From contig CALMQS010000028.1 of assembly GCA_937871285.1 (NCBI GenBank), positions 1 through 64,000 of the forward strand: a stretch of 64,000 bases of DNA. Direction: 5' to 3'. Both the position numbers and the translations under genes were made by a program. How positions within the stretch are numbered: position 1 is the stretch's first letter; every line of letters begins with the position of its first letter. This DNA comes from an uncultured Sphingobacteriales bacterium. Its GTDB lineage: Bacteria; Bacteroidota; Bacteroidia; Chitinophagales; Chitinophagaceae. Below are positions 5,258-49,888 of this stretch, piece after piece. Under the pieces are notes generated by a model, which saw nothing but the letters and a program-made list of their open reading frames with translations, ran no database searches and was not told the origin of the DNA.

Positions 5258-7765
5258 TTAATAATTGTTTTGCTTTTCTCTGTTTTGCGTAGCTATCCGT
5301 TTAATAGCCTGTTCCACGTTGCCATCCAGTTCCCCGGCGAGTTGCATAACCTCCAACTTCTCGGTTTCTTCTGTGGTATAGGCTAAGTATTCCTCAACAC
5401 TAACTTCTGTGGCGTACACGGCGGAGTGCGTACCCCCTAAACCGATCCATACTTCTTTGTACAATCGTTTCGGGTCGTTGTTCATGTTGATGGAAAGGAT
5501 TTGTGATTTTTCTTTTTCAGTCAGCCCGAGCATTGCCTGGATATCATCGAACTTGTTCATGTACTTGCGCTGATCAAGCAGTATTTTACAGTCGGAGTTG
5601 TTGATGATACTTTCCTTTACAATGGGTGACTGGATAATATCATCCACTTCCTGGGTAACCACGATGGCTTCACCGAAAAACTTGCGAACTGTTTTAAAGA
5701 GGTACTTGATATACTCAGCCATACCTTCTTTCGCAATGGCTTTCCAGGCTTCTTCAATAAGGATGAGTTTACGGACGCCTTTAAGCCTTCTCATTTTGTT
5801 AATAAACACCTCCATAATGATGATGGTGACAATCGGGAACAAAATCTTATGGTCTTTTATGGCATCAATTTCAAATACGATGAATCGTTTATTAAGTAAA
5901 TCCAGTTGCTTGTCTGAGTTTAACAGATAATCGTATTCACCACCTTTGTAGTAAGGCTCCAACACGTTCAGGAAGTTGGCAATATCAAAATCCTTTTCCC
6001 TTACATGCTTTTCCTCCAGTTCCTTTTTATAATCTGTTTGTACATACTCATAGAAACCATTGAAGGACGGGCAGGCAATCGCCTGTTTGATATGTTCAAT
6101 ATATCCTGCTACCGCGTTGGACAGCGCCACTTCTTCCGAACGCGTGGGAGGTTCATCATCGCGTTTCCAAAGGGTTAGTATCAATGTCTTGATGCTTTCC
6201 CTTTTTTCGATGTCAAATACGCCGTCATCGGTATAGAATGGATTAAAGGCAATAGGGTTATCTTCTGTGTAGGTAAAGTAAACCCCATCTGCAGCTTTGG
6301 TTTTTCCTTTGATGAGTTCACATAAGCCCTGATAGCTGTTACCGGTATCTACCAGCAACACATGAGCGCCCTGCTCATAATACTGCCTCACCATGTGGTT
6401 GGTGAAAAAAGATTTACCCGAACCTGACGGACCTAAGATGAACTTATTGCGATTCGTGATAATACCCCGCTTCATCGGCAGATCAGAAATATCCAGGTGA
6501 ATGGGCTTGCCGGTGAGCCGGTCAGCCATCTTAATACCGAACGGCGATGGAGAACTCTGGTAATTGGTTTCTTCGGTGAAAAAACACAGCGCGGGTTCTA
6601 TGAAGGTGTAAAAACTCTCTTCAGCCGGGAAGTCACCTGCATTACCCGGCATGGCTGCCCAATAGAGCGTTGCTGCGTCTACGGTGTTGTGGCGTGGTTT
6701 GCATTCCATTAAAGCCAATGCGCTACCGGTATCATTTTTCAGTTGCTTTAATTCAACCGGATTATCTGACCACGCCATCACATTGAAATGCGCACGGATA
6801 GATGAAAGCCCGTAGGAATGCGCTTCGTTCAGGTAGCGTTCAATCCATTCCTTGTTAATCTGGTTGGCACGGCTGTAGCGTGCCAGCGAATGCATATTCC
6901 TTGCCGATTTCTCAAACTTGCGCAGGTTCTCCTCGCTGTTGTCAAGGAACAGGTACTGATTGTAAATGTGGTTACAGCTTAGGAGCAGTCCCACCGGAGC
7001 GGCAAAGGACAAAAGACAATCACTGCGGTCGGTGGACAGCTTTTCGTACCTGGTGTTGGATGACACCGCCGCGGGCAGATCATCTGTATCTGATAAAGTG
7101 TGCAGGCAAAGCCTTTTGTTGCCGATGCGAACTTCCTCCGCTGCCAGGGCGATATCCTGCATGGGTGTTCCTGCATCCCGCGACAAAGTGAAGTACTGCT
7201 CCAGTAAGCCTTGCTGCTCACCTGCGCCTATAATATCATCTTCGCTTAGTCGTTGCAGTTTGATAAAACCGCTGTCGTTTACAATTCGTTCAAACTGCGC
7301 TACTGCTTCCATAAAACGATGGATGGCTTCTTTGTCCCGCATTTCCCTGGGAACAAGCGCACCTTTGCAAAGCGAAGAGAAATTACTTTGCATCCGCATC
7401 CGGTCTTTGGTCGTCTTGGTCACAAACAGATAGCAGTAGTGATTAAGGAAGGGGCGTTCATTGAAATGCTGCTGATATGATTTTGCCAGAAAACTCAACC
7501 CGTCTTGTGCAATACCCGGTTCATAGTTTTCTTTGATAAACCAATCCTGTTTATGAACAATGGTAAAATCCGGTAGTGTTTTAATGGCTTTGTGCCACGC
7601 CGAATGTATGGCATCATATTCTGCAGAGGCTACTGTAAACAGTTCCGGTAAGTGTACCCGGAAGCAAGCAGTAATATCCGCATCCTTTGAAATGATGCAA
7701 TGGTTCTCTACAGCCAGTAGCGGAAACTTACTTTCCAGCGTGGCGATTTTTGACATGTTTCTCAT
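5258..7765 (-). CDS. traG: TraG-family conjugation ATPase (VirB4-like)
   Basis: An 835-residue VirB4-type ATPase that powers assembly and use of the mating channel. ATG at 7765 (MRNMSKIATLESKFP) is chosen because it overlaps the traF stop as ATGA; the frame is open for 18 more codons upstream. Walker A (GPSGSGKS) is at about residue 443, Walker B (LILIEEAWKAI) at about 663, and VVTQEVDDI follows. The N-terminal third is the VirB4-specific domain. Full length and apparently intact. Confidence 0.93.
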   Translation of the reverse strand: MRNMSKIATLESKFPLLAVENHCIISKDADITACFRVHLPELFTVASAEYDAIHSAWHKAIKTLPDFTIVHKQDWFIKENYEPGIAQDGLSFLAKSYQQHFNERPFLNHYCYLFVTKTTKDRMRMQSNFSSLCKGALVPREMRDKEAIHRFMEAVAQFERIVNDSGFIKLQRLSEDDIIGAGEQQGLLEQYFTLSRDAGTPMQDIALAAEEVRIGNKRLCLHTLSDTDDLPAAVSSNTRYEKLSTDRSDCLLSFAAPVGLLLSCNHIYNQYLFLDNSEENLRKFEKSARNMHSLARYSRANQINKEWIERYLNEAHSYGLSSIRAHFNVMAWSDNPVELKQLKNDTGSALALMECKPRHNTVDAATLYWAAMPGNAGDFPAEESFYTFIEPALCFFTEETNYQSSPSPFGIKMADRLTGKPIHLDISDLPMKRGIITNRNKFILGPSGSGKSFFTNHMVRQYYEQGAHVLLVDTGNSYQGLCELIKGKTKAADGVYFTYTEDNPIAFNPFYTDDGVFDIEKRESIKTLILTLWKRDDEPPTRSEEVALSNAVAGYIEHIKQAIACPSFNGFYEYVQTDYKKELEEKHVREKDFDIANFLNVLEPYYKGGEYDYLLNSDKQLDLLNKRFIVFEIDAIKDHKILFPIVTIIIMEVFINKMRRLKGVRKLILIEEAWKAIAKEGMAEYIKYLFKTVRKFFGEAIVVTQEVDDIIQSPIVKESIINNSDCKILLDQRKYMNKFDDIQAMLGLTEKEKSQILSINMNNDPKRLYKEVWIGLGGTHSAVYATEVSVEEYLAYTTEETEKLEVMQLAGELDGNVEQAIKRIATQNREKQNNY

Positions 7766-8106
7766 GGGCGATCGGATTTTGGAGTGAACTTCAGATAGCG
7801 ACGGATGGACTTTCGGCAAACGATGTAGCGCGGATGCTTTTTATTAGCGGCTCGTTTCATTAAACCATGCTCACCATATTTTTTGTTGAGTGAGAAGGTT
7901 TGCCATACAATGAGCGAACCGCCACCGGCTCCAATGAACAGGCATACAAAGGAGTTTGCCCCTGCCATGTACAGGATCATCACCAGGATTAAAACCCCAA
8001 GTAATCCGCCGGCAAATATGAACAGGTACTGCGCTTTCAGGCCTTTGAACTCAACCGTTCTTCCAATGCCCTTATTGATATTGTAGTTACTCATACGATG
8101 GGGCAT
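7762..8106 (-). CDS. traF: Conjugal transfer protein TraF (DUF4133)
   Basis: A 114-residue protein with two adjacent membrane helices (about 28-46 and 50-67), resembling VirB3. The signature INKGIGRTVEFKGLKAQY near the N-terminus is typical of DUF4133. Its ATG overlaps the traE stop by one base (TAATG) and its stop overlaps the traG start (ATGA). A second ATG at codon 5 is possible. Confidence 0.9.
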   Translation of the reverse strand: MPHRMSNYNINKGIGRTVEFKGLKAQYLFIFAGGLLGVLILVMILYMAGANSFVCLFIGAGGGSLIVWQTFSLNKKYGEHGLMKRAANKKHPRYIVCRKSIRRYLKFTPKSDRP

Positions 8107-8833: not shown

Positions 8834-10792
8834 ATGAGCAAGATAATAGACATCGGTGTTGAAAAAGACCATATTGAATCTTTAACTAAGGCGAACGGTA
8901 TAAATGCACTTGCGGAACTTTTGTGGAATTCTCTTGATGCTGACGCAAGTGAAATAAAAATTGAATACCTGCCAACCAAATTAGGAAACTATGATTACAT
9001 AAAAATAATTGACAATGGACATGGTTTGACTTATGAGAAAGCACAAGATGTTTTTTCAAGACTTGGCGGATCTGAAAAAAAACTCAAAAGCCAAAGCCCG
9101 AACGGCAGACAGTATCATGGGAAAGAAGGAAAAGGAAGATACAAAGGATTGGCTTTAGGCGACTTGGTAAAATTTACAAGCATTTATCAAACTAACGGTA
9201 CTGCTTCACAATTTACAATCACTATTGACAGAAACCAATTATCAAAAACTGAAATCAGCGACCTAAAACAACTTAAAAAAGGAGAAGTTTCAACTGGATT
9301 TACCGTTGAAATCGCCAATGTCAATCTGAAGAATGCCGACTTTGCACTTAAAGCAGAAAACAGGAAAGAACTTGAAGAAAAGTTTGCATCTTATTGGATA
9401 AGCTATCCGAAATTTAAAATATTTTTCAACAACTCTGAATTGGAATTCGCCTCTCTTATCAAAAATTCAGATCAAACAGAAATACAAGCAGAAGTTGGTG
9501 AATTCACTTATAAGTTTGTTATCAAAGTTTTGGAATGGAATTTTGACAATAAGAAAAAAACATATCTCTGTAATGCACAAGGAATTCCCTTTTTAGAAAC
9601 TAACTTAGGAATTCGTTCTAGCATACCTATTTCCGTTTTTATCCAATCAGTCTATATAGAAAAACTTCAAAGGGATAATACTATTGATTTTTACGAATCA
9701 GATGAAGCCATAGTAGGCATTTTAAAAGCAGCGAAAGAATTTTCTAGAGATTATGTTCGGAAAAGACTTCATGAATATTCAAAAGAATTTATAAAAGATT
9801 TAAAACAGAAAGGAATTTATCCATATAAAGAACCTGCAGAAAATCTAATAGAAGTATCAAAAAGGCAGGTCTTCGATATAGTCGCATTACAGCTTAATGA
9901 ATATCTACCTTCGTTTAATGAGCAGGACGATAAAAACAAAAAGCTTACTCTAAAATTAATAAGCGAAGCTTTAGAAAAGGATTCCAATAATTTAAGAAAA
10001 ATACTTGGAGAAATAATAGAACTCCCAGAAGAACAACGTGAAGATTTGGCAGAGTTGTTAGAAGATACTTCACTTTCAAATATCATTGATGCAATGACGG
10101 AGGTTAAAAATCGGCTTAATTTTCTAAACGGATTAGAGCAAATTATCTACGACAAAGATTTGAATAAAAATATTCTTGAAAGGAAACACTTACATAAAAT
10201 TATAATCAACGAAACATGGATATTTGGCGATGAGTATACTTATGGAGTTGACGACCTAACATTAAAAAATGTGTTGAAAGCTTATCTAAAAGAATGCTTA
10301 AAACGTACCGACTTTGAAGAAGTTGTAAATTCCGAAGATAATCAAGAACTTGAAACGATTCCGGATGTTTGTCTTTGGCAACAATACAGTTTAGGCACAG
10401 CAGGAAAAGAAAATCTAATCATAGAGTTAAAGCGACCAAGCCTAAATGCAGGACTGGTTGAAATGGGACAAATAATGTCTTATGCTTCAAAAGTATCTAC
10501 TGACAAACGTTTTCCAAAAGAGAAAACGAGATGGAAGTTTATGGTTGTAACCAAAGACGTTGACAAGGAGTTGGAACCACAGTTAAAGCAAAAGAATAGG
10601 AAATTTGGGCACGTATCGGAAGGCGAGAATTTTGATGTTTTTATACTTTCTTGGGGCGACATTATTAGTGAAGCTAAACAAAGACATGAGTTCATTAAAG
10701 AGAAATTGAACCTTAATTTGAAAAACAATGAAGAAGGCTTAAATTATCTTAAAACAAAATATAAACAATATTTACCAACAGAAAACGAATGA
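8834..10792 (+). CDS. GHKL ATPase fused to a Shedu-like PD-(D/E)XK nuclease domain
   Basis: A 652-residue protein. The N-terminal third is a GHKL ATPase of MORC/Hsp90/MutL type: E28-x3-N32 with D35 (AELLWNSLDADA), the D60-N-G-H-G64 box and a lid loop with GKEGKGRYKGLALG (96-109). The middle is helical and charged. The C-terminal domain from about 445 has W462-I-F-G-x-E467-Y, P510-D511, E531-L-K533-R-P and Q546-x3-Y550. This is the order of a PD-(D/E)XK nuclease and resembles DUF4263, the Shedu nuclease domain. ATP-dependent clamping or sensing with DNA cleavage, probably against phage or plasmid DNA, is inference. The stop overlaps a 27-codon ATGA-coupled frame. Confidence 0.85.
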   Translation: MSKIIDIGVEKDHIESLTKANGINALAELLWNSLDADASEIKIEYLPTKLGNYDYIKIIDNGHGLTYEKAQDVFSRLGGSEKKLKSQSPNGRQYHGKEGKGRYKGLALGDLVKFTSIYQTNGTASQFTITIDRNQLSKTEISDLKQLKKGEVSTGFTVEIANVNLKNADFALKAENRKELEEKFASYWISYPKFKIFFNNSELEFASLIKNSDQTEIQAEVGEFTYKFVIKVLEWNFDNKKKTYLCNAQGIPFLETNLGIRSSIPISVFIQSVYIEKLQRDNTIDFYESDEAIVGILKAAKEFSRDYVRKRLHEYSKEFIKDLKQKGIYPYKEPAENLIEVSKRQVFDIVALQLNEYLPSFNEQDDKNKKLTLKLISEALEKDSNNLRKILGEIIELPEEQREDLAELLEDTSLSNIIDAMTEVKNRLNFLNGLEQIIYDKDLNKNILERKHLHKIIINETWIFGDEYTYGVDDLTLKNVLKAYLKECLKRTDFEEVVNSEDNQELETIPDVCLWQQYSLGTAGKENLIIELKRPSLNAGLVEMGQIMSYASKVSTDKRFPKEKTRWKFMVVTKDVDKELEPQLKQKNRKFGHVSEGENFDVFILSWGDIISEAKQRHEFIKEKLNLNLKNNEEGLNYLKTKYKQYLPTENE

Positions 10793-10872
10793 CAGAATAC
10801 CAGCAGGCAATAAAAGTATTTGCAAAAGCAGGGCAGGACAATGTAACATCAGCGATGTGCTACTATCAGTAG
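10789..10872 (+). pseudogene. 27-codon frame coupled to the ATPase gene, probable gene remnant
   Basis: An ATG overlaps the ATPase stop codon as ATGA and opens 27 codons (MTEYQQAIKVFAKAGQ and onward) before a TAG that lies inside a small hairpin (10859-10873). The ATGA coupling and protein-like composition suggest the first codons of a third operon gene whose remainder was replaced by the linker. It could instead be a chance frame or a genuine small peptide. Confidence 0.35.
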
Positions 10873-11003
10873 CGGTTCTGGCTTGACGTTCAATATTCAG
10901 CTTTAGTTCTTGGCTTCAACATCAGTTTTTCAAATGAGCATTTGTGCCGGGCTGGACGAACAATGAATTCCCTGCCTTTGCAAATACTCAAACGTTAGCG
11001 GCT
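10859..11003. repeat. Non-coding linker between the two cargo genes, with stem-loops
   Basis: The linker begins with a perfect 6-bp hairpin (10859-10864 with 10868-10873, 3-base loop) and ends with AACGTTAGCGGCT. The last eight bases, TAGCGGCT at 10996-11003, are repeated inverted as AGCCGCTA at 12184-12191 after the second gene. Its sequence is non-coding in all frames and its composition differs from both genes. It is reminiscent of cassette-joining sequences, but it does not match the integron attC core consensus. Confidence 0.4.
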
Positions 11004-11035
11004 TATTGACAAACTCCAACCTTTTTATAACAGAA

Positions 11036-12178
11036 ATGAAAGCTCGCCAAACTTTAAGGCGACCTTCTAATTGGCAAGACTTTGAATCTCTTTGCAAAAT
11101 TCTTTGGGGCGAAATTTGGAATTGCCCAGAGATTCAAAAAAATGGAAGGCTTGGACAAGAACAATCGGGAGTTGATGTATTTGGAATACCATCAAATGAC
11201 GATTCTTATTACGGTATTCAATGCAAGGGTAAAAGTGAATACAACGACAACCAATATGACCATCCTCAGTTTACGGAGCAAGAAATTGAAATGGAAATTG
11301 AAAAAGCAAAAATATTTTCACCAGCTTTAACGAAATTTTATTTAGCGACAACTGCGTTAAACGATGCGAAAATTCAAGCTTTTGTTCGACAGAAAAACAT
11401 TGAACATAGAAAGAATGACTTATTTGAAGTTCATCTTTTTTGCTGGGAAACAATAGTTGATTTAATTGATGAAAACAAACGAACACACGATTACTATGTC
11501 AAAAGTCAAAACTATAAAACAAACCAAAGCGTAGCTGTGACGTTTGAGAATAGCGAAACTGAAATTATTTGCAAGCCCAAATTCAAAAAACAAATAACAC
11601 ATTTTAGACAGAAAATTGTATTAGCTGAACCCAATTCCCTCTTTGAATCAATACGTAAACAACAAGTATTTTTAAAGGCTTTAACACCAAAGCCGATGTT
11701 CTCCAAAGAAGTCAACAAAAGTTATTTTGGGTTCAATATTAAAGTTCACAACAATGGAAAAGACCCAATCGAAGAGTACAAATTACTTTTAAATTTTGAA
11801 GGTGATGTTATAGGATTGAAAGATAGCAATGACTTCGGCATGAACATATTAGCACTTCCAAAAAACTATTTTCATACGACTTACCTGTGGTTTGATTCTC
11901 TGTCCGGAAAATTAATTCCAAGAGAGCCGATCCTTGTTGGTGACGATACTTTTTCATCTGAAAGAATTTACATTAAGACAAGGCCTGTAGAATCAGAAAT
12001 ATTCATAAAGTGGAAATTGCTATCAAAAGATTACAAAAACGAAGGGATACTTACAATAAAAGTTAAACCTAACATAATCACTGAGTATGAAGATATTTTA
12101 GTTGAAGACCCTTTAAAAGTAAAAACAGTTGAAGGTGAAATAGAAGACTACGTTACCGACAAAGATGATGACGACTGA
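11036..12178 (+). CDS. Mrr-like PD-(D/E)XK endonuclease with unknown C-terminal domain
   Basis: A 380-residue protein. ATG at 11036 is chosen; a TTG 30 bases upstream is in frame. The N-terminal domain (1-150) fits a restriction-endonuclease fold of the Mrr type: DFE17 in the first helix, G45-V-D47-V-F-G, then Q62-C-K64-G-K. The C-terminal half (about 160-360) looks beta-rich, with an immunoglobulin-like feel (YFGFNIKVHNNGKDPIEEY), and the tail is acidic (DKDDDD). No methyltransferase partner is adjacent. It is probably a DNA-cleaving effector of the cargo module; partnership with the ATPase rests on adjacency only. Confidence 0.75.
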   Translation: MKARQTLRRPSNWQDFESLCKILWGEIWNCPEIQKNGRLGQEQSGVDVFGIPSNDDSYYGIQCKGKSEYNDNQYDHPQFTEQEIEMEIEKAKIFSPALTKFYLATTALNDAKIQAFVRQKNIEHRKNDLFEVHLFCWETIVDLIDENKRTHDYYVKSQNYKTNQSVAVTFENSETEIICKPKFKKQITHFRQKIVLAEPNSLFESIRKQQVFLKALTPKPMFSKEVNKSYFGFNIKVHNNGKDPIEEYKLLLNFEGDVIGLKDSNDFGMNILALPKNYFHTTYLWFDSLSGKLIPREPILVGDDTFSSERIYIKTRPVESEIFIKWKLLSKDYKNEGILTIKVKPNIITEYEDILVEDPLKVKTVEGEIEDYVTDKDDDD

Positions 12179-13915: not shown

Positions 13916-14674
13916 TTAGGGGTTAATAATTTTTAAAAACTCCTCCACAAACAGGTCAAGCCTCGTAGCTTTCATCAATTGCGTTTCAGCGGGGAGCAGG
14001 CTGGAACGAAAGATGGAATTGCCGGCATCATCGGTCTCTTTGCGGAAGCGTTTGCTATCCATTATCCTTGCTTCCATTACCAGTAAACCTAACTGTTGTA
14101 TTACACTTTGATAGGCTTCATACAGGTGGGTTTTTTCCCTGCCGTCCACCTGGTTCCAGAACAACCAAAAAGCCAGATCCTTGTTCCCGTTTTCTGTTTC
14201 GGGAAGCTGAAGGAAGGCTTTTGCAAAACCCAGTGTACTTTCCACCACCAAACGATCTGCAGTAACGGGCGAGAAAATAAAATCCATTGTTTTTAAGGTA
14301 GTCAGTACGCCTTTTGTATTTGCCGTTCCCGGCAGATCAAAGAAAATAATATCCGGTTCAACTGCCGGGCCATTTATATACTCTAATGCCTTATCTAATG
14401 CATATTCAGCCCTGCTTTTGATTATGGGATATGCCTTTTTATTAATCGCCTGAAACTGCTTCATAGCGGCCCGCTTGTGGTATTCGCTTTGCATAACCGT
14501 CTTCATGTCCCGCTCCCGCATATTGAACAGGCTATGCTGTGGGAAATCGCAGTCCATGACTATTACATTAAAACCTAACCGGTAGTGCAGTATGCTTGCC
14601 AGCAGGCTTGTCATTGTTGATTTTCCAACACCTCCCTTTTGAGTAGAGAAGCTGATCTTTAAAGTTTTTTTCAT
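13916..14674 (-). CDS. traA: ParA-family ATPase (TraA-like)
   Basis: A 252-residue ParA/MinD-type ATPase. The deviant Walker A box K13-GGVGKS-T is at residues 13-20, the Walker A' region VIVMDCDFPQHSLF at about 37-50 and the switch region DIIFFDLPGTANTKG at about 112-126. It heads the minus-strand tra operon and is divergent from the mob genes across about 720 bases. The usual role is partitioning or positioning of the element or the transfer machinery. A short upstream spacer with T-runs may hold the promoter. Confidence 0.9.
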   Translation of the reverse strand: MKKTLKISFSTQKGGVGKSTMTSLLASILHYRLGFNVIVMDCDFPQHSLFNMRERDMKTVMQSEYHKRAAMKQFQAINKKAYPIIKSRAEYALDKALEYINGPAVEPDIIFFDLPGTANTKGVLTTLKTMDFIFSPVTADRLVVESTLGFAKAFLQLPETENGNKDLAFWLFWNQVDGREKTHLYEAYQSVIQQLGLLVMEARIMDSKRFRKETDDAGNSIFRSSLLPAETQLMKATRLDLFVEEFLKIINP

Positions 14675-15231
14675 TGTTGCTATTATTTAAATATTTGTTG
14701 TTTTATACAAGGTTGTCAACGTGTTTGCGCAGACACCTGCTTTTTCTTTTTATTTTATTATAATCTCTGTTGTTTACTATTTGTAATGTTTTCTCCATTC
14801 TTCTACTTCTCTAAATCTGCATTACTATATATTTTTAGTGTCTGTAATTTTTACAGTTTTTAAAATGCGTTGCTGTTTTCTTTTTTTACCCGGTTCTTTT
14901 AAAACCCAATGTTTTTATGCTTTTATTACTTACCTGTTGTTAGCAGGTAAATTGTTATTGTCACGTTGTTTACCTCTTTACTTCAGATCCTGTTTTCAGC
15001 GCTCCTATACAACTTTAAAGCAAAGAAAATAGCAGATGAATGTCATTTTCTAAATGTGGTATTCATTGTCGCTTTATGTCTTCATTTGGCATTGTCTAAT
15101 GCCATATAGCAACCGTTTGCCTGTGTTTACTTTGTAATGACTGAATTGTTGAAAGAAGAAACTGGACTATGGTTGTTTAAGTGAACAGTTTAATAATCGG
15201 CATGAAGCCGTTTTTTTCCCTGCTTACTTTA

Positions 15232-15250
15232 ATCCCGCCCAAAGCGGGAT
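15232..15250. repeat. Hairpin 1 of the pre-mob cluster
   Basis: ATCCCGC at 15232-15238 is mirrored by GCGGGAT at 15244-15250 with a five-base loop, a perfect 7-bp stem. It is followed by TTTT, so it could also be a terminator for a short leader transcript. Confidence 0.5.
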
Positions 15251-15252
15251 TT

Positions 15253-15270
15253 TCCTTTCACCGGAAAGGA
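15253..15270. repeat. Hairpin 2 of the pre-mob cluster
   Basis: TCCTTTC at 15253-15259 pairs with GAAAGGA at 15264-15270 around a four-base loop. It starts three bases after hairpin 1 ends. Confidence 0.45.
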
Positions 15271-15271
15271 G

Positions 15272-15324
15272 CAAGTTGTGTTTTGAGCAGCGCCAAATGC
15301 AGGGCGCAGCTCAAAACGAACTTG
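15272..15324. repeat. Hairpin 3 of the pre-mob cluster (longest)
   Basis: Arms GTTTTGAGC at 15280-15288 and GCTCAAAAC at 15309-15317 are perfectly complementary. The stem extends outward with CAAGTT at 15272-15277 pairing AACTTG at 15319-15324, and inward with GCGCC/GGCGC. At over 50 bases it is the strongest candidate for the structured part of oriT, or for a regulated terminator before mobA. Confidence 0.5.
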
Positions 15325-15339
15325 TCCGCCACAGGCGGA
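15325..15339. repeat. Hairpin 4 of the pre-mob cluster
   Basis: TCCGCC at 15325-15330 and GGCGGA at 15334-15339 form a 6-bp stem with a three-base loop, immediately after hairpin 3. About 20 bases downstream a weaker stem is followed by six T residues (about 15367-15372), terminator-like. Confidence 0.45.
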
Positions 15340-15393
15340 GACTTAAAACACCCTCCGAAGTCGGGTTTTTTCAGCATTTTAAAATGATGTTTT

Positions 15394-15837
15394 ATGGACG
15401 AGAATAATAAGAAGAATGGAACAAAAAAATATGGACGTCATCCCAAAAATGATCCTGCGGTATTCAGGTATTCTATATCATTAAATGCTCAGGAGAATGC
15501 CAGGTTCCTCTCACTATTTGAAACATCCGGTATGCAGGTAAAGGCGCATTTTATTACAGCCTGTGTATTCCAGAAGACTATTAAGACGGTAAAAATTGAT
15601 AAAGCAAAAATGGACTTTTACATGCGGCTGACAACATTGTACGGACAATTTCGTGCAGTTGGGGTGAATTATAACCAGGTAGTTAAGATATTATACCGCA
15701 ATTTTTCGGAGAAAAAAGCAGCCGCATACCTCTTTAAATTAGAAAAGCAAACAACGGAAATGGCTGCATTATGCCAGAAAATAATACAGTTGATACAGCA
15801 GTTTGAGACAAAGCATTTGAATAAAAACGGGCAGTAA
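15394..15837 (+). CDS. mobA: Relaxosome accessory protein MobA
   Basis: A 147-residue basic protein, helical after residue 25. FRYSISLNAQENARFLSLFE resembles the ribbon-helix-helix N-terminus of MobC-type relaxosome proteins, and GVNYNQVVKILY is a family hallmark. It should bind oriT and help the relaxase open the strand. Its stop overlaps the relaxase start (TAATG), so the two are translationally coupled. Confidence 0.85.
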   Translation: MDENNKKNGTKKYGRHPKNDPAVFRYSISLNAQENARFLSLFETSGMQVKAHFITACVFQKTIKTVKIDKAKMDFYMRLTTLYGQFRAVGVNYNQVVKILYRNFSEKKAAAYLFKLEKQTTEMAALCQKIIQLIQQFETKHLNKNGQ

Positions 15838-17156
15838 TGATAGCGAAGATCGGCAGGGGGGAGAATATTTACGGGGCTTTATCTTACAACCAGATCAAAG
15901 TAAATAATGAAAACGGAGAGATTTTGCTCCTGCATAAAATGCTGGAAACACCCAATGGCAAATATTCCGTGGCCCAATTATCCCGCTCTTTTGAACCTTA
16001 CTTATTAGCTAACCGCAATACTGAAAAACCGGTATTACACGTCTCTCTCAATCCTGATCCCAACGATAAGGTGAGCGATGAAAGGTATAGGCTGATGGCG
16101 CAGCAATACATGCAGGAAATGGGTTACGCAGATCAGCCGTTTGTGGTGTTCAAGCATAACGATACCAGCCGTACTCATATTCATATCGTTTCTGTATGTG
16201 TAGCCGAAGATGGCAGGAAGATTTCTGATTCATTTGAACGAAAACGTTCTATGAATGTTTGCCGGTCATTAGAACAGCAGTATAATCTTATAGCGGCCGC
16301 AGAAAAAACCCGTGAAAAGGATGAGCGGATATTTAAACCGGTGAATTATAAAACAGGCGATATAAAAAGCCAGATGGCTGCCGCGGTCAGATACCTCCCC
16401 AAACACTACCAGTTTCAAACGCTTGGGGCATATAACGCCTTACTTTCCTTATTTAACATTACCGCCGAAGAAGTTAAAGGCGAGCTGAACGGCCAGCCAA
16501 AACATGGTTTGGTTTATATTGCTTTGAATGAACAGGGAGAAAAAGCAAGTAACCCGTTTAAGTCTTCACTATTTGGAAAATCTGCTGGTATAGTCTGGCT
16601 CCAAAAGCATTTTGAAAAATCAAAGGAGCAAATGAAAACAAACCAGGTAAGGGCTACACTTAAAAACAGCATTGAGACGGCAATGCATATAACTTCCAAT
16701 GAAGCAACTTTTAAAAAACAATTACTGGAGCAGGGAATCAATACCGTTGTTCGCCGTAACGAAGAAGGGCGTATTTATGGAATGACTTTCATTGATCATG
16801 AAAGCCGCACTGTTTGGAACGGATCGCAATTGAGTAAAAATATATCTGCGAATGTCTTCAATGAATTATGGCAACAGGAAGTAACGCAAAATCATGAAGT
16901 CACTTTACCGGACAGTACCCGGTTTACCAGTTCGATAGACAGGACAAAAGATGATGATTCCGATAAGGATAAGGAACAGCCCCATGAACTTTTTGATTTT
17001 CTATACAAGGATAAACCTGCGGGTTCTACTGAAGGATTCGATTTAGCAGAAGGCATTGGCGGGCTTTTACCGCAGGCGCAGGGTGAGGATTATGAGGAAC
17101 TGGCCTTTGAAAGGCAGATGAAGAAAAGGAAGCGGAAAGCCAGTAGAAAGTCCTAA
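15837..17156 (+). CDS. mobB: Relaxase MobB (MOBP-type mobilisation nuclease)
   Basis: A 439-residue DNA-nicking relaxase. The histidine triad is H107 and H114-I-H116 in KHNDTSRTHIHIV, and a candidate catalytic Tyr lies in NIYGALSYNQIK (Y12 or Y17). The helical middle and highly charged C-terminus (KKRKRKASRKS) suit DNA and coupling-protein contacts. It cleaves one strand at oriT and pilots it into the recipient. Length is normal and the gene is intact. Confidence 0.92.
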   Translation: MIAKIGRGENIYGALSYNQIKVNNENGEILLLHKMLETPNGKYSVAQLSRSFEPYLLANRNTEKPVLHVSLNPDPNDKVSDERYRLMAQQYMQEMGYADQPFVVFKHNDTSRTHIHIVSVCVAEDGRKISDSFERKRSMNVCRSLEQQYNLIAAAEKTREKDERIFKPVNYKTGDIKSQMAAAVRYLPKHYQFQTLGAYNALLSLFNITAEEVKGELNGQPKHGLVYIALNEQGEKASNPFKSSLFGKSAGIVWLQKHFEKSKEQMKTNQVRATLKNSIETAMHITSNEATFKKQLLEQGINTVVRRNEEGRIYGMTFIDHESRTVWNGSQLSKNISANVFNELWQQEVTQNHEVTLPDSTRFTSSIDRTKDDDSDKDKEQPHELFDFLYKDKPAGSTEGFDLAEGIGGLLPQAQGEDYEELAFERQMKKRKRKASRKS

Positions 17157-17604: not shown

Positions 17605-19602
17605 ATGCAGGGAGAAGACGATTTGAGAGGACTGGCCAAGATCATGGCGTTCATGCGTGCCGTAAGCATCATCATGGTGCTGATGCACTTCTATTGGTTC
17701 TGTTACGGGTTCTTTGCCCAGCGTGGCTGGACCCTGGAGGTTATCAATAAAGTGTTGGGCAACTTCCACAGAACAGCAGGACTTTTTTCAAATACACTTT
17801 ACACTAAAATATTTGCATTGGTACTACTGGCATTAAGCTGTCTCGGTACTAAAGGGGTTAAGAATGAGAAGATAACCTGGCCGAGGATTTATTCAACCTT
17901 AGCCATCGGGTTTATATTGTTCTTTTTCAGCACAACGCTATTAAAATTATCGGCTAGCATAGCAGCATCTTCATACATCCTCACGACCTCAACTGGGTAC
18001 ATCGCTTTAATGGTTGCAGGAATATGGATGAGCCGCCTGTTACGTAACAACCTAATGAGCGATGTATTCAATAATGAGAATGAAAGCTTCCAGCAGGAAA
18101 CCAAACTCATGAGTAATGAGTATTCTGTAAACCTTCCCACTAAATTTTATTACAAAAGCAAATGGAATGAGGGATGGATCAATGTAGTAAATCCTTTCAG
18201 AGCTACAATAGTATTGGGTACGCCTGGTTCAGGTAAAAGTTATGCCATCATAAATAATTATATCAAACAGCATATTGAAAAAGAGTTTTCAATGTACATC
18301 TATGACTTTAAGTTTGATGATCTTTCTACCATTGCTTACAATCATTTACTGAAACACAGCGGTAAGTACAAAGTAAAACCAAAATTTTATGTGATCAACT
18401 TTGATGATCCGCGAAGGAGCCACCGCTGCAATCCGCTTAATCCTGAATTTATGACCGATGTTTCCGATGCCTACGAAGCAGCTTATACCATCATGCTAAA
18501 CCTGAACCGTAGTTGGATACAAAAGCAGGGCGATTTTTTTGTAGAAAGCCCGATCATTCTTCTGGCTGCTATCATCTGGTTTTTGAAAATCTATGATAAC
18601 GGCAGCTACTGCACTTTTCCTCATGCCATTGAGCTATTGAACAAAAAATATGCAGATGTATTTACCATCCTTACTTCCTATCCCGAACTGGAAAACTACC
18701 TGTCTCCGTTTATGGATGCCTGGCAGAGCGGCGCACAGGATCAGTTACAGGGACAGATTGCATCGGCTAAAATTCCGCTTTCAAGAATGATCTCCCCGCA
18801 ACTCTATTGGGTAATGACCGGCGATGATTTTTCTTTGGATATTAATAATCCGAAATCACCTAAAATACTTTGTGTAGGCAATAATCCCGACCGACAAAAC
18901 ATTTATTCCGCAGCATTGGGCTTATATAATTCAAGGATCGTGAAGCTCATCAATAAGAAAGGACAATTAAAGAGTTCTGTGATCATTGATGAGTTACCAA
19001 CCATTTACTTCAGGGGACTTGATAATCTCATTGCAACTGCCCGTAGTAATAAAGTAGCTGTTTGCCTGGGCTTCCAGGATTTTTCGCAATTAACCCGTGA
19101 TTATGGCGACAAGGAAAGCAAGGTGATTCAAAATACCGTGGGTAATATTTTCAGTGGTCAGGTAGTTGGAGAGACTGCTAAACACTTATCCGACCGCTTT
19201 GGTAAAGTGTTGCAAAAAAGACAGAGTTTAACCATCAACCGTAGTGATAAATCTACCTCTATATCCACTCAAATGGACACCCTGATACCAGCTTCTAAAA
19301 TCGCTACGCTTACCCAGGGTATGTTTGTGGGCGCCGTATCAGATAATTTTGATGAACGTATTGAGCAGAAAATATTTCACGCTGAGATTGTAGTGGACAA
19401 TGACAAGGTAACTTCGGAGACAAAAGAATACCGGAAAATCCCCCAGATATTATCTTTTGAGGAAGCGGGAGAAGATAAGATGAAACAGGAAATTGAAGCC
19501 AATTACCGGCAGATCAAACAGGACATTATTGGCATCATTGAAACCGAAATGGAGCGGATAAAAAGTGACCCTGCATTGCAGCATTTGGTGCAGCGGGGAT
19601 AA
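17605..19602 (+). CDS. mobC: Type IV coupling protein MobC (TraG/VirD4-like, YWFCY domain)
   Basis: A 665-residue membrane ATPase that links the relaxosome to the mating channel. The N-terminal YWFCY domain (HFYWFCYGFF, about 28-37) has several membrane helices up to about residue 150. Walker A is G205-TPGSGKS; Walker B is VIIDELPTIYF at about 459; the DRFGKVLQKRQS region follows. Full length. It is separated from mobB by a decayed small gene. Confidence 0.92.
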   Translation: MQGEDDLRGLAKIMAFMRAVSIIMVLMHFYWFCYGFFAQRGWTLEVINKVLGNFHRTAGLFSNTLYTKIFALVLLALSCLGTKGVKNEKITWPRIYSTLAIGFILFFFSTTLLKLSASIAASSYILTTSTGYIALMVAGIWMSRLLRNNLMSDVFNNENESFQQETKLMSNEYSVNLPTKFYYKSKWNEGWINVVNPFRATIVLGTPGSGKSYAIINNYIKQHIEKEFSMYIYDFKFDDLSTIAYNHLLKHSGKYKVKPKFYVINFDDPRRSHRCNPLNPEFMTDVSDAYEAAYTIMLNLNRSWIQKQGDFFVESPIILLAAIIWFLKIYDNGSYCTFPHAIELLNKKYADVFTILTSYPELENYLSPFMDAWQSGAQDQLQGQIASAKIPLSRMISPQLYWVMTGDDFSLDINNPKSPKILCVGNNPDRQNIYSAALGLYNSRIVKLINKKGQLKSSVIIDELPTIYFRGLDNLIATARSNKVAVCLGFQDFSQLTRDYGDKESKVIQNTVGNIFSGQVVGETAKHLSDRFGKVLQKRQSLTINRSDKSTSISTQMDTLIPASKIATLTQGMFVGAVSDNFDERIEQKIFHAEIVVDNDKVTSETKEYRKIPQILSFEEAGEDKMKQEIEANYRQIKQDIIGIIETEMERIKSDPALQHLVQRG

Positions 19603-20056: not shown

Positions 20057-23000
20057 TTACATTGCTTTCAATTTTGCTGAAGATTTAATGGAAACGCTTT
20101 GTTTTGTTTCATCGGACTGAAAATGATCAGTCTGATCATCTTTGCGCTGTTCAGAACTAATAGACAACAGTATTTTCCTGTCCAGTCCCGCAAGTTCATT
20201 TTTTAAATCTGTGAGCTGCTTTTCTTTCGTCCAGGTTCCGTTTACCACTTCCTGCAAAACAGGCAAATCTTTTTTCATACCGGCAATTTTCTTTTCTTCC
20301 TGTTCCATCAGTCCGGGTAGTTTTTCCAAAGCATTCAGAAAGTTCATGGAAGCCAGCTTTGGATCGGATGCCATCTGCCCGTTATTGTAGGTGTATTTGA
20401 TACCGCCTTCGCCCATCACAAAAAAGCGGTTATCTTTTATATCCATTCCATCTTTCTTAGATATCTCGGTTTTTACAAGTAGGGTAAATCCATACAGGCT
20501 GCCGATTTCCAGGTATTCTCCTTCGGTTCGGGATTTGGCAGATAGTTCATTCAGTTTAGTGCCAATTTGTTTCACATCGGCGGTGGCAGGCAGGTCAGTT
20601 AACTGCACAGGATTGGCAATTGTGCCATCCTGTCTTTTCTGTATGCGTTTTTGAAGGTTATCCCAATCTGTTTTCATTCGCTCAAGGCGTGAGCTTGCAG
20701 CTTCCATTGATACTGTTATATCTTCCAGCTTATATTTGGAACTGAACTTAGAGCGGTTGAATGCCTGGCGTTCACTGTGCAGACCTGCAATTTGTTTTTC
20801 CAATTTTGCTTTTTCCAGCAGATCGGTGTTGCCTGAAAGTATGGCTACGTATTCAGAAAAATTCATTCCGGACTTTTCATCAATACCACCTTCATCAATG
20901 GTTCGTTTTCCGAGGTTATTGCTTTTGAGCTGATCAATAAAAACCTGTTTGTTGTACAGGAGATTGAACTTATAACTATCCAAAGATTTTTCCACCGCGT
21001 AAATAATAACATCCACTGTATTCCCCGCAAAGAATTTTGCAATTTCATTGCCTTTGCGGATAGCCCGGCCATCGCGTTGGGCAAGGTCGCTGGGTCGCCA
21101 CGGCGTATCTAAGTGATGAATGGCTATAGCCCTCTTTTGACCGTTAACACCTGTTCCAAGCATGTCAGTGGAGCCGAATAACACACGGATTCTACCCTCG
21201 TTGAATGCTTTAATTATTTCTTTCCGTTGCTTTTCATTCTTCACTTCCTGGATAAAGCGAATTTCATAGGCCGGTATGCCATAATCTTCTATCAGCTTGC
21301 GTTTGATCTCACTATACACATTCCATCCGCCAGGCTTATAGGTTCCCAGGTCAGAAAAGACAAACTGCGTTCCTTTCTGAGCATTGAACCTTTGATAGTA
21401 TTTGGCAATATTGGCAGCGCAATGAGATGCTTTGTTATCGGGATGGTCGTCATACTTTGAACTTATCATCCGCATATCCAGTGACATCTTACGGGCATAA
21501 TCAGTAGCAATCAGCATCTTTGCTTTTTCTTCTGACTCAGATAATTTTGATCTTCCAAGCAGGGTAGCATCACCCGTTTTGGCAAACTCCATCAATTTTT
21601 TGATAAACACTTCCTGCTGTGGTGTTGGTGGAATATTGTGCAGTATCTCTTTTTTTTCAGGACGATCAATTCCGATATCTTTTGCGGTTCTGTAGTCTGT
21701 TATTTCTGAATAGAACTGCGCCAGTTCAGGTACTTTAATAAAAAAACGGAAGCGCTCTTTCTGTACAATATTGTTGGCTACAGAAAATTCATAATCGGTG
21801 GTTTTTCTTGCATAAATAGCCGCCCAGGCGTCAAAACAGTTAATACCCTGTTTTTCCAATGCTTTAGGGCGCAGGTATTTGAACAACAGATAAAGCTCTG
21901 TCAGTGAGTTACTGATAGTAGTCCCCGAAAGAAAGGTTGCACCTAAATCTTTACCGGTACGTTCCTGAATAGTGCGGATAGCAAAGAGCAGGTTCATTGC
22001 CTTTTGGCTACCCTGCATATTACCGAGCCCGGCAACACGCTCATGGCGGGTATTGAACATCAGGTTTTTAAAACGATGGCTTTCATCAACAAATAAATGG
22101 TCTATACCCATCATTTTAAAATCCACTACATCATCCTTGCGGCTTCCAATATCGTGCTCCAGTGTTTTGAGCTTCACTTCAAGGTTTTGCTTTCGGACTA
22201 TAACACCTTTGAGCATCGCTCTTGAAATCTCTTTACTCTGCTTTTGTAAAGCGGCAAGATTTTCTTCCACACTATCCAGTTCAATTTGCAGTATCTCCTT
22301 TTGCAGCTCCGGTGATTGTGGTATCATGCCGAACTGGTCGTGTGTGAGTATCACGCAATCCCAATTGTTGTTTTTAATCTCGCCGAAAATGCGTAGCCGT
22401 TTCTTAGGGGTAAAATCCTCTTTACCAGGGTAAAGAATCCTGGCGTGTGGATAGGCGGTTCGGTAAGCCTCGGCAATTTCGTGGACGTTACTTTTCAAAC
22501 CAATGATCATCGGTTTGTGGGCTAAGCCCAAACGCTTCATTTCCTGTGCTGCCGTACACATCACTAATGTTTTTCCGGCTCCTACTTCGTGATCACAGAT
22601 AGCGCCGTTGTTCAGCTTGATCATCCATACCGTATCCTTTTGACTCGAATACAGGTCGTCAATGCCCAGGCCTTTCCTGTTCAGTTCGGGAAACTCCTGG
22701 TGGCTTCCATTGTACTGCGGACGAACAAAGCAGTTAAACGTATCGTTGTATTTATCGGTAAGTCTTTTTTTAAACTCATCATTCTGGGCGTGCAGCCATT
22801 CGGTAAAAGCAGTACGTATCTGATCAATTTTAGTGCCGGCCATCTGTATAGCCTCCATATCCCGCACCTTCATTTCCTGGTCGCCCACCATAATCTTTTT
22901 GGTGATATCGGGCGTAGTATTTACCAACGCATGTTTTAACAGCGCAATGCCATCATAAGTACGGCTTTCAGATTTTACAGCATACTTGTCCCATATATGC

Positions 23001-25465
23001 ACATTCTTCCGGTCGCAATTAATGGAAAAATCATCTGTGTTTTCACTGTAGTGAATCCTGACTTCTGTATCGAATAAAGATGAGGCAAACCGGTTGTAAA
23101 TACCTTGTGGTATCCATCGTTCACCCAGGTTAAAATCCAGTTCTTCAAATTCAATTCTTGTTGGACGGGCTTGTGTTAATGCCTTCAAACTTTCAACTGC
23201 TTCCTTATCACCGGGGTTTTCATTTACATAAGTTTGTACAGCCGCTGCTTTTTCTACCACATCTCCGCAAACCCATCGCTCGGAAATTTCATATTCCCTG
23301 TCAAGTGGATTATAATAAATCCGGCCATGTAAAGCAGTCTTCAGCTCCTCTGTAGTTATTCCACTGATCCGGGACATAAAATCCAAATCAACTTTACCTG
23401 ATTTGTTGAGAGACGCCGCTAATGCTTCATCAGGATTACCGGCAGCTATTGTGTTTGTAGAAAAACTTACCGGGCGATGGAAGATATCTGCCTTATGTAC
23501 AACACCGCCCACCACGCGTTCCATGTAGGGTATCTCATTTCCGACGCTATCTGTTTTTATCAGCTTTATATTGTCAGCGCTGTTCAGGTTGCCATACCGT
23601 TTTACAAAGCCGTCATACAGCCTGTTAAGTGTTGCCCGTTCTTCATTATGTTCACTTTGTAGTACTGCTTCTTTGTGGTAAAGATCAAGGTAGCTATCAC
23701 GCACAGCGATATAGGCTTCCGCTCTGACTTTTTGTGAACCACTCAACTGCAAAGGATGAAACATAGCCTGTTGCTTTTCACTGTCCACTTTTCGCAGGTA
23801 ACCCACAAAACCATTACCCGTTACAAGACAATCATCCCTGTAATAAGAACAAAAGCTTCCGCTGTAAAGGGAAGGTTCCGGTAAGACTGCGGATTGTGAA
23901 ACAGATACATTAACTCCATTTCCATTTAGCCCGGAAAACAGGTCGCCTGCTACGCCCTGTGGTTTATTACCATTAAAAGGTTTGCCTTCGCCATTCAACG
24001 GTTTGCTATTGACAGGAAGTGGATGTGGTTGCTGATTTACAGCGCTGAATAAATTGGATTGTGCTGTGGCAATGGTCTTTTTTTTAACAGGGGATTGTTT
24101 GACGGCAGTGGAGGTAGCGCCTGCTGATGCTGTCTGCTGCGGGCTTGCCAACAAATCAAACAGGCTCAACTGCACATGCCCTGTGGATCTGCTACTGGTG
24201 TTTTGAGCAGGTGCATGACCAATCTGCTGCTTAATAGTTATTTGTTCATCGCGGGGGAGTTCCGGCTTTGGCCCGGTGAATATTTTAATTACAGGTTCAT
24301 CCTTTTTTAATCCCCTGTACAACCCGATGTCTAAGCGTTCAGTCAGGTCTGATAACAACATTTTTTTCATGTCCCTTGCTATACCTTCAACACCTTCCCC
24401 GTGTTCATAAATCCAGGCAGGTCGTCCGTACAGATCAGTGTCTTTGTACAGGGAGGTATGAACGATACGGTCCAGGTTTTCAAACAGCACATTATTGGTA
24501 GTATCGTCAGCGGTGGTATAGGTTTGGCAAAACCGCTGTTCAATCTCTGAAAGACCCTGCTTTTGGCTGTTTTTTTGAAGTACGATTAAGTCACTACCAA
24601 CCTGCGTACCCGCATGATCTGTAAAAAGATTATTGGGTAACCGGATGGCAGAAATCAGGTTATTGTCATGCATCAATGCCTTTCGGATGGGCTCGTTCCT
24701 TGCGCTGTTGAGCACAGCTTGCGAAGTAATAAAAGCAAGCAAGCCACCATCGCGGAGCATATCGGTTCCCTTCAGGAAAAAATAATTGTGTATGCTTCTT
24801 GCCGCCTGTACCCTGGCTGGATATTTACCACGGCAATAAGAAAGATCAAATACCGAAGTATCCCCGAACGGAATATTACTTGTTACCAGATCATAGCTGT
24901 TCTTTTCATTTTCCGGGATTTCTTCAAATCCACTTACGCGGGTATTGACATCCGGATAAATGTGTTTTAATATCTTGGCTGTAAGCAAATCTTTTTCATA
25001 CGCTGAAATCTCACTGGTAGCACCAAAGGTTTTTTTAAAAGATTCAATAAAAGCACCCGAGCCTGCCGATGGTTCCAGCATCCGGTCTATTGCTATGCTT
25101 TTTTCTTTTAGTGCCGCTGCAATGGCATTGATGACAGGCGGCGGCGTATAAAAAGCTGTTAGCACAGAACCGCGCATACTATCTACATAGCTGCGGTACT
25201 GCTTTTCATCAGTGGAATTTTCCCTTAATAATTGCAGGAGTTCCTGCGTTTTTGCAAACAGCGGGTGATCTGTCTTTCTCCATTCGTTGATGTCAATAGG
25301 ATTATCGGCAGGGTTTAAAACGAATTTTAAGCCGCCAAAACCACTGTATTGCATCAGCAGCAGGCGCTCGCTGGCAGTAGCATTACGCTTTTCTTTTTCA
25401 AGTTTAAAAGCAATACTAAGGGCATCAATATTGCACTGGAGATGCTGCGGTTTACTAAAGCCCAT
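20057..25465 (-). CDS. Giant N6-adenine methylase-like and SNF2-type helicase fusion
   Basis: An 1802-residue protein; ATG at 25465 is used since the three extra codons upstream begin with TTG. SAM motif I (EPSAGSG) is at about 131-137 and a variant methylase motif IV, NIPF, at about 197-200. A low-complexity region follows (400-520). The helicase has Walker A GAGKT at about 960, DESH at about 1123, a motif III-like SGTT and motif [15 protein letters not shown] near 1500. Such proteins are standard in Bacteroidota conjugative elements and may protect entering DNA or remodel it; the exact role is unproven. Start overlaps the DUF1896 gene. Confidence 0.88.
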
Positions 25466-25886
25466 GTTCCTCAATCCAGGTTGCTATGGTTCCGGTTAAT
25501 TCGGTGTAGAGCAGGTCAAAATCTGTACCGTATGCGAAGTCACCGGTGAGTTCATATTTTGCAAATACCGGTTCGCAAACCGGCAGCATTTTCAAGGCGA
25601 AGGGACGAAGTTCCTCATCCATCATAACGGTGTCGAACTCGTTACTTACCGCCTGCATTACGGTATCAAACTTTGAGAAATACAACCCATCAAACAGTAC
25701 ACTGTCGGCAATGGCCTGGCATTGCTCTATCCTGTTCCCTGCTTTAAACGCACTCTCATAAGTTTCGGCGGCGTATTGGGAACGTTGTTGAATGAAGACA
25801 TTATCATGTGCCAGTTCCGGGAAGCTTGTATTTAGTAATTCCTGTAGTCTTAATGAGAAATAGGAAAGTTCATTTTGCTGTTCCAT
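25455..25886 (-). CDS. DUF1896 protein
   Basis: A 143-residue acidic, helical protein. The stretches [33 protein letters not shown] and [13 protein letters not shown] match DUF1896, a family almost confined to Bacteroidota conjugative elements. Its last codons overlap the start of the giant methylase-helicase, so the two are probably co-translated. Function unknown; an accessory role for its large neighbour is inferred from coupling. Confidence 0.8.
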
Positions 25887-48611: not shown

Positions 48612-49888
48612 TGCAGCCAGGGTTGTTAGGGTTGTACATAATTGTACTGCACAAACATCGCCGAAAACCCGACATAACAAAATAACATCCGTCAATATTC
48701 AATCTATTTTCCGGAATGGAAAAGTTGAATCTATTGATAATTAATGCGTTTAATTTTTTGCTACCGTTTAAAAACATTAAAAAAACGTTGTTTTAACGGT
48801 AGCGGGTACCCGTTGTTTAACAATAAAAAAATACCGTTTAAAAACGGTATAAAAAACGTTGTTTTGTTTTTGGTGATTTCAAAATACAAACCTATGCACC
48901 CAACAACTAACGCCAATGATTAACGAATTCAAACCTACCGCTCATTTTCCGAAACCTCGGTTTTCCTTACCGGCATTCAGATAAAACCGAAAAAAGGATC
49001 CTTGAGTTTGCATGCTTCATAGGTATTATTAAAATAGCCAGGAGGATTGTTACACGCGAAATCATGGGTGAAGAAGGAGGGAAAAGCCAGGTTGGGACAG
49101 AATTAAACTACCAATCTTGCTCTCCGCCTAATATCAGCGATAATATCTTTACCGTTTTTGCACCCGACATCGGACACCGAAAAAATATTTATGATTGCAT
49201 CCAACTACCTGTCACAGTACCACTGGCATTTCTGTATTTTGCTTTTACGGTATTGTTTGGTGTCCGTCTGTAACATGAGTCAAGATGGTCTGGAATCTAT
49301 ACTTTTTGCATAATCTGCTGGTTAATGCAGAAACAAAAGCCTTGGATAAATGGGTTTGTCTTTTCACCGGAGAAGCAAATAATTTAATCCGGGCAATTAG
49401 TGAAGCGATTGCAGGTGAGGAAATATAAAGCACTTTTTATATATTGGATTTTAATCCAGGTTTGCAGCAGTCAATCCTTCCGGAATGGCATCCTGGCTCT
49501 TATTTGTATTCCCTAAGGTTAAAAATGCCCTTTGAATATTTGAATAAAAATCATAAAACAGCTAAATAAAATTTTTAAAGCCGGCATTATAAAACTAACT
49601 TGCCTAACTTTCCCAAGGGTTTAGGGTTGAAACTAATAAGGGGTCTGTTTTTACGGTGCCCCTTTTCTTTTGGCGATTTTCGCAATATGATCGCTACAGA
49701 AAACATTATAGACAGAGAGTGATATTGTAAAGATGTAAATCTGTCGACCGGCTTCAAAACAAAAGATGGATTTATAACAATTTTGAAGCTGCATGTAGAA
49801 TCGCACTTGAAGATATAGCGCGGCCACAATTCACTGAATGCATTAGAGGGGTATTACTATAACCATGTACTACTAAAAGAAACTTTAA
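48612..49888. other. Gene-poor region upstream of the Rhs locus
   Basis: About 1.28 kb with no convincing gene. It opens with a palindrome-rich stretch (48764-48866, listed separately). A 47-codon plus-strand frame (49285-49428, MVWNLYFLHNLLVNAETKAL) has some protein character and could be a remnant. Frames at 49064-49273 and 49587-49829 look random. A leftward promoter for the Rhs locus should lie in the first few hundred bases. Confidence 0.4.
48761..48850. repeat. Palindrome cluster upstream of the coiled-coil envelope gene
   Basis: Three nested structures lie close together: GCTACCGTTTAAAA at about 48761-48774 pairs almost perfectly with TTTTAACGGTAGC at about 48791-48803; the 10-bp palindrome CGGGTACCCG follows at once; then TACCGTTT/AAACGGTA at 48832-48850. 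The motif TACCGTTT recurs in both stems. They could be regulatory (operator or attenuator) for the leftward Rhs locus, or a decayed mobile-element end. Confidence 0.45.

Follow-up and report, generated by a model that had tools for sequence, protein, structure and literature searches.

A conserved hairpin array upstream of mobABC as the probable transfer origin of CTnDOT-type conjugative elements in Bacteroidota

The 64,000-nt stretch of DNA analysed here, hereafter the window, includes the part of a CTnDOT-type ICE where the tra and mob operons diverge, and an array of hairpins lies between the two operons. We conclude that the core of this array, H2 to H5 (15253-15371), is very probably the oriT of this CTnDOT/CTn341-type ICE, a reading to which we assign a probability of roughly 0.87 on the basis of sequence comparison. 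The reading is favoured because the core pairs in the manner of DNA, occurs away from mobA and without the promoter-like motif found there, and has an H3 that ends in a MOBP-like way. The array is conserved, its stems covary with DNA-type pairing, and it occurs independently of the mobA leader.

The hairpin array and the genes around it

The initial annotation described four consecutive stems before mobA, followed by a T-run, as either an oriT or a regulated leader. All four stems are present, i.e., H1 with 8 bp, H2 with 7 bp, H3 with 6+9+5 bp and H4 with 6 bp. However, the count was too low, since a fifth hairpin, H5, had been overlooked and a weak H0 lies further upstream (Table 1). The T's are likewise there, but they belong to the 3' arm of H5 (AAAA.ACCC / GGGT.TTTT). 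As for function, comparative evidence favours the oriT for H2-H5, and a leader component may apply to H0/H1.

The hairpins were also said to be denser than the neighbouring sequence would suggest, and this is the case. None of the 2661 tiles of 144 nt covering the whole 64 kb has a DNA folding energy as low as that of 15232-15375, for which the GC-corrected z is about -7. Against dinucleotide shuffles of region 15225-15393 (n = 200 each), z was -9.66 for DNA of the + strand, -8.99 for DNA of the - strand and -6.95 for RNA, and no shuffle folded as well in any of these three settings. The most foldable spot outside the array after GC correction is an AT-rich stretch with strong hairpins at 48660-48900 (DNA z -3.87).

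Table 1. Coordinates of the hairpin array and neighbouring genes in the window
Feature	Position	Strand	Description
TraA-like ParA ATPase	13916..14674	-	first gene of the tra operon
Divergent intergenic region	14675..15393		between tra operon (ParA/TraA, - strand) and mob operon (+ strand); from ORFs and families
Promoter-like motif TTACTTTG	15127..15134	+	145 nt before H3
H0	15198..15210	+	weak, terminator-like CGGC/GCCG hairpin of short length with a T-run after it
H1	15231..15251	+	8-bp hairpin, terminator-like, T-run after it; mostly found in mob leaders
H2	15253..15270		7-bp hairpin with which the conserved core begins
H3	15272..15324		long inverted repeat CAAGTT-GT-GTTTTGAGC...GCTCAAAAC-G-AACTTG; 6+9+5 bp with small internal loops
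Putative nic	15324..15325	+	AACTTG/TCC at the H3/H4 junction (nick after AACTTG)
H4	15325..15339		6-bp hairpin directly 3' of the putative nic
H5	15345..15371	+	bulged hairpin, arms AAAA.ACCC / GGGT.TTTT, 9-nt loop TCCGAAGTC
H5 loop TCCGAAGTC	15354-15362	+	closable as a C-GAA-G mini-hairpin
mobA, nicking accessory protein	15394..15837	+	NF041324 E 1.4e-64; PF19514 MobC_2
mobB, relaxase	15837..17156	+	NF041325 E 7.7e-183; PF03432 E 2.3e-27
mobC, coupling protein	17605..19602	+	NF041326, 1122.6 bits

The placement directly 5' of relaxosome and relaxase genes was confirmed by family assignment of the three mob products (NF041324, NF041325 and NF041326), which are the NCBIfam families Bacteroid_MobA, Bacteroid_MobB and Bacteroid_MobC, and the array ends 22 bases from mobA. 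As is expected of an oriT, the array consists of non-coding inverted repeats that are conserved in related elements and it adjoins mobABC genes of these families. Tyr17, His107, His114 and His116 of MobB are invariant (18 homologues), and this Tyr and three His in a relaxase with a MobA/VirD2-type nuclease domain are as expected for a MOBP oriT. No PDB chain was matched by the sequence profiles of MobA or MobB, and the predicted fold of MobA (a poor model with a mean pLDDT of 66.4) had no PDB match at E <= 0.001. On the other side of the array, genes for the ParA-like TraA and DUF3408 proteins lie on the - strand, with a TraM gene further on. The query protein at 5258-7819, beyond traA, is called TraG as a working label that is not family-based.

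Other parts of the element and of its genome were also noted. At 8834-12178, two + strand genes lie amid the - strand tra genes, one encoding a GHKL-type ATPase of 652 aa that weakly matches type II restriction enzyme models and the other a 390-aa protein without a family; the two are possibly defence cargo. Inside the ICE, 20057-25474 encodes an 1805-aa protein with N6-methylase and helicase domains. A second ICE region of the same genome, on contig C123 (L207 / L031), carries its own array, and its identity to the window is 94% for MobA, 79% for MobB and 97% for MobC but 58% for TraA, as if the mob and tra modules of the two regions had different histories. A third, distant relaxase of this genome (contig C15, G000; L032, L242) has no recognisable array or RAA loop upstream.

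Conservation, covariation and the putative nick site

Loci with a MobB relative numbered 113, some of them being one genome reached twice, and 95 of these had a MobA match. The array lies no more than 150 nt 5' of mobA and on the same strand in 86 of the 95, and elsewhere in the locus in 6. The fetched stretch was without an array in three (L008, L066 and L072), and for L008 and L072 arrays were located further away on the opposite strand (L174 and L188). A covariance model of H2-H5 (R1) matched 20 of 395 genomes drawn across the phylum (E <= 0.001), in a match list that includes weaker reverse-strand echoes of true arrays and in which the lowest-scoring matches on the first strand (32-42 bits) are less certain. 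The array also precedes the annotated mobA-mobB-mobC in a record of 55,727 bases from Bacteroides fragilis strain 214_V8GG (L209, 93 bits), and is present in a B. ovatus record (L208). Compared with other arrays, the window copy has one extra base at the base of H3. H1 and H4 vary in length among arrays, which resulted in a poor RNAalifold consensus on the MAFFT alignment.

Pairs were counted with a hand-set structure on an alignment (A3) of 42 of the 76 distinct arrays. A k-mer filter had kept 47, from which L036, L043, L051, L052 and L113 were left out by hand on the grounds of insertions, H4 length variants and a CTTACCC row, so that the counts lean towards well-aligned members, and H4 is scored by two pairs only. 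In these 42 arrays standard pairs make up 94.3% of 1426 cells, and relative to the commonest pair both sides have changed in 135 cells and one side in 8. The observed pairing, compensatory-cell count and covariation score were matched in none of 500 shuffles; the observed count of further pair types was reached in 28 of 500. Furthermore, only 38-53% remained paired once the partner had been shifted 1 to 3 columns along the alignment. The six scored pairs of H2 are paired in all 42 sequences, exclusively as Watson-Crick pairs, and three of them covary, all seven scored pairs of H5 show two-sided changes, and H3 has a base that is mostly conserved in sequence below a covarying upper stem.

The type of pairing differs from that of an RNA control. 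G-U pairs contribute 8 of the 1345 standard pairs in the array (0.6%) compared with 49 of 552 (8.9%) in a control of 30 TPP riboswitches of the same class, which had its own alignment and represents a single RNA family. A-C mismatches outnumber G-U pairs in the array (28 vs 8), and the TPP riboswitches show the reverse (9 vs 49). An RNA fold should tolerate G-U above A-C and the array does the opposite, therefore the low G-U pairing points to selection on DNA and not RNA, with one control family behind the comparison. The RNA-type pairing with tolerated G-U that a leader RNA should have is thus not what the array displays.

The 9-nt loop of H5 reads TCCGAAGTC in 64 and TCCAAAGTC in 9 of the 73 distinct leaders; TCC[G/A]AAGTC is accordingly found in 73/73, a loop of this kind having been required by the parse. 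A closed TC-X-RAA-X'-TC loop is present upstream at 102 of 117 relaxase loci of the window family and at 13 of 19 of a distant family. Its closing pair is C-G in 102 of 103 loops of the window family, and in the distant family it is G-C in 10 and C-G in 4 of 14. AAA replaces GAA in 12 of the 103 closed loops of the main family. Across both strands of all loci (3.0 Mb) there are 257 occurrences of the closed pattern, a number that includes the arrays, many of them fetched repeatedly, and as such gives no clean background rate.

In 108 distinct arrays the last bases of H3 are CTTG and the next base is C or T, with three further rows outside the parse, L043 among them. The latter (2383-2555) reads CTTACCC at the putative nic, compared with CTTG[CT] in every parsed array, and is possibly a dead origin. 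At 15 loci with a distant relaxase (~25-33% identity; L018-L030, L032, L033), GCAAGAT...ATCTTG was found upstream in 8 and an H5-type loop, TC[C/G]RAA[G/C]TC, in 10. Three of the 15 have neither motif nor loop, namely L032, L033 and also L027 if the motif must be exact, ATTCTTGC being found there in its place. PMC3772185 gives the MOBP nick consensus as (C/T)ATCCTG(C/T), preceded by an inverted repeat. The ATCTTG/C of the distant relatives is one base from the MOBP ATCCTG and the AACTTG of the window is two positions off; the window has the inverted repeat of a MOBP oriT, with the hexamer AACTTG where the consensus is ATCCTG. By analogy with this motif and its adjacent inverted repeat we place a putative nick at 15324/15325 on the + strand, and hold this position with moderate confidence.

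Arrays away from mobA and alternative readings

A motif like TTACTTTG lies 129-152 nt before H3 in 67 of the 73 distinct leader arrays, and we take the window copy (Table 1) to resemble the Bacteroidetes -7 promoter box. Among the arrays INDEPENDENCE from the leader (16 distinct, not classed as leading mobA), 14 are without the promoter-like motif. The two that have it are L014 and L064, the former lying directly before a relaxase gene and being a leader in all but a MobA match. A convergent ORF (>=80 aa, stop within 150 nt) faces 9 of the 16, some other loci being too short to tell. Since the motif is missing from 14 of 16 and a convergent gene runs towards 9, the core does not qualify as an obligate leader, whereas a leader RNA should always lie 5' of the gene that it regulates and read in the same direction. 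At L065 and L184, a 113-aa gene runs toward H5, and mobA-mobB are ~2 kb off on the other side, reading away. In these and other Flavobacterium elements, AbiEii-type and DUF6922 genes lie between mobA and the decoupled array (L065 1308-2356, L184 4241-5289, L188 and L198), the assignments having been tested on the L184 copies.

Among 40 longer loci, five (L168, L172, L176, L200 and L205) have no MobA or MobB match, and all five carry the array. At L168, the array (6007-6187) lies between a phage-type integrase gene and a convergent rteC-like gene, and mob genes are absent from the 12.5 kb around it. This genome is one contig, where the sole MobB match at E <= 1e-20 is more than 2 Mb away and a more distant relaxase relative is found at 3625143. 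The L168 array appears to be preceded by a partial second copy. We regard mob-less arrays as candidates for islands mobilised in trans, or for remnants. At L170 and L171 (G230), the array is followed by a MobA gene with no recognisable MobB, and these may be remnants or trans-mobilised elements. Plasmid searches with the array DNA returned four records in all, none of which was shown to be oriT-only.

A stem of at least 6 bp in the H1 zone is present in 82 of 95 distinct leader arrays vs 3 of 17 others, the set of 95 taking in loci fetched after the count of distances to mobA. A tally for H0 was not used, because in some non-leader arrays the edge of its zone fell inside the H0-like hairpin. 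H1 and H5 are terminator-like in shape, and the region has 2 terminator-like sites vs 1.0 expected. H0/H1 and the promoter-like motif, which accompany mob leaders, may have a part in regulating the operon. An Rfam search over 14000-16500 (E up to 1) found no RNA family, its one sub-threshold match lying inside traA. A hidden ORF through the array (GTG ORF 15181-15387) was considered and rejected, as no forward frame is open across the array in 32 of 73 distinct leaders, and the reverse strand is alike (34 of 73).

These observations bear on several alternatives to an oriT. If the array were only a regulated 5' leader RNA of the mobABC operon, i.e., an attenuator or protein-binding leader with no oriT, the near-constant distance of the promoter-like motif in 67/73 distinct leaders, the terminator-like score of H1 and the covarying stems would all be explained. 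The scarcity of G-U (0.6% of pairs vs 8.9% in the riboswitch control), the 16 distinct non-mobA arrays with their 14 missing motifs and 9 convergent genes, and an Rfam result of nothing but the sub-threshold traA match make this very unlikely. A related reading, in which mobilisation depends on a small RNA specified by the array, has a precedent in the sgm-sRNA beside the SGI1 oriT (PMC9299015) and would account for covarying stems and a promoter-like motif upstream in leaders. We judge it even less probable, given that G-U pairs are nearly absent, that 14/16 non-mobA arrays miss the motif and that the oriT of SGI1 itself is described there as lying outside the core sRNA.

The terminator-like shape of H1 and H5 could also be read as a chance run of terminators between operons. 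This is scarcely credible, as the order, spacing, loop sequence and covariation of the hairpins are conserved across the phylum, the operons diverge here, and mob transcription would need to read through the array. An arrangement with both functions, where the oriT core H2-H5 sits within a leader whose H0/H1 attenuate mob transcription, is compatible with the oriT reading and is counted inside it. The stem in the H1 zone (82/95 leaders vs 3/17 non-leaders) and the T-runs after H0 and H1 speak for such a dual role; its basis is shape and co-occurrence, with terminator-like sites at 2 vs 1.0 expected, and we entertain it tentatively.

Proposed mechanism and comparison with known systems

Reading H2-H5 as the oriT, we infer where the nick would fall, which strand would be nicked, which proteins would contact the DNA and how the operon may be regulated. 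The MobB relaxase, helped by MobA, would nick the + strand after AACTTG (15324) and stay on the 5' end of the leaving strand, whose start would be H4 and H5. H3 would be the inverted repeat 5' of nic, read by the relaxosome and reused to terminate transfer, and H2, H5 and the upper stem of H3 would act as folded single-stranded DNA. The GAA is on the + strand, as would fit if this strand folds and leaves. H0/H1 and the upstream promoter-like motif would be associated with the mob transcript in the complete ICE and may modulate how it is expressed.

A broader proposal, which we put at somewhat less than even odds, is that the array is a Bacteroidota-wide oriT module working as folded ssDNA, with H5 acting at the end of the transferred strand that leads, where it is located, and that mob-less copies mark trans-mobilised islands. 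H5 would then serve in strand recognition, or in priming or promoter activity in the recipient. Besides the inverted repeat of the relaxase, H3, the array keeps separate covarying hairpins, among them H5, whose loop can close as a DNA-type C-GAA-G mini-hairpin with its C-G pair swapped to G-C between families. The DNA-type covariation and the swapped pair make the folded-single-strand role of oriT hairpins directly testable, and the exact nick prediction at 15324/15325 and the hairpins can be tested singly. Furthermore, a profile of the module finds candidate oriTs directly, including those on islands without a nearby relaxase gene.

Much of the gene exchange in Bacteroidota is carried by CTnDOT-type elements, and the literature that we searched says little about their transfer origins. 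Peed, Parker and Smith reportedly located the CTn341 oriT within 100 bp of mobA in 2010, together with a putative nick site at which mutation abolished transfer, and an oriT was therefore expected at the mobA-proximal place. The window shares the Bacteroid_MobA/B/C families with CTn341 and CTnDOT, as well as, by that report for CTn341, an oriT lying before mobABC on the mobA side. A mobA-proximal oriT is thus already reported for CTn341, and it is the architecture of the module that deserves testing. The five-hairpin plan, the DNA-type covariation, the H5 loop and the mob-less arrays were not found in our literature search, which missed most subscription papers.

Beyond Bacteroidota elements, SGI1 with its oriT and sgm-sRNA also has a structured region beside its mobilisation genes. 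However, its mobilisation proteins are described as tyrosine recombinase kin in PMC9299015, unlike those of the window, where there is no sign of an RNA role. The closable C-GAA-G of the H5 loop is the core of the very stable DNA mini-hairpin d(GCGAAGC) (Hirao 1994 and Yoshizawa 1997, via PMC11101458 and PMC6582339). H5 resembles this GNA triloop, swapped to G-GAA-C in the distant family, and differs from it in that its mini-hairpin is flanked by TC/TC mismatches and that some loops carry AAA. The MOBP oriTs of RP4, VirD2 and H. pylori tfs4, as presented in PMC3772185, share with the window a relaxase of the MobA/VirD2 Pfam family and a nick hexamer immediately preceded by an inverted repeat, the hexamer of the window being putative. 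Unlike them, the window has AACTTG/T in place of ATCCTG/[CT] and additional conserved hairpins 3' of nic.
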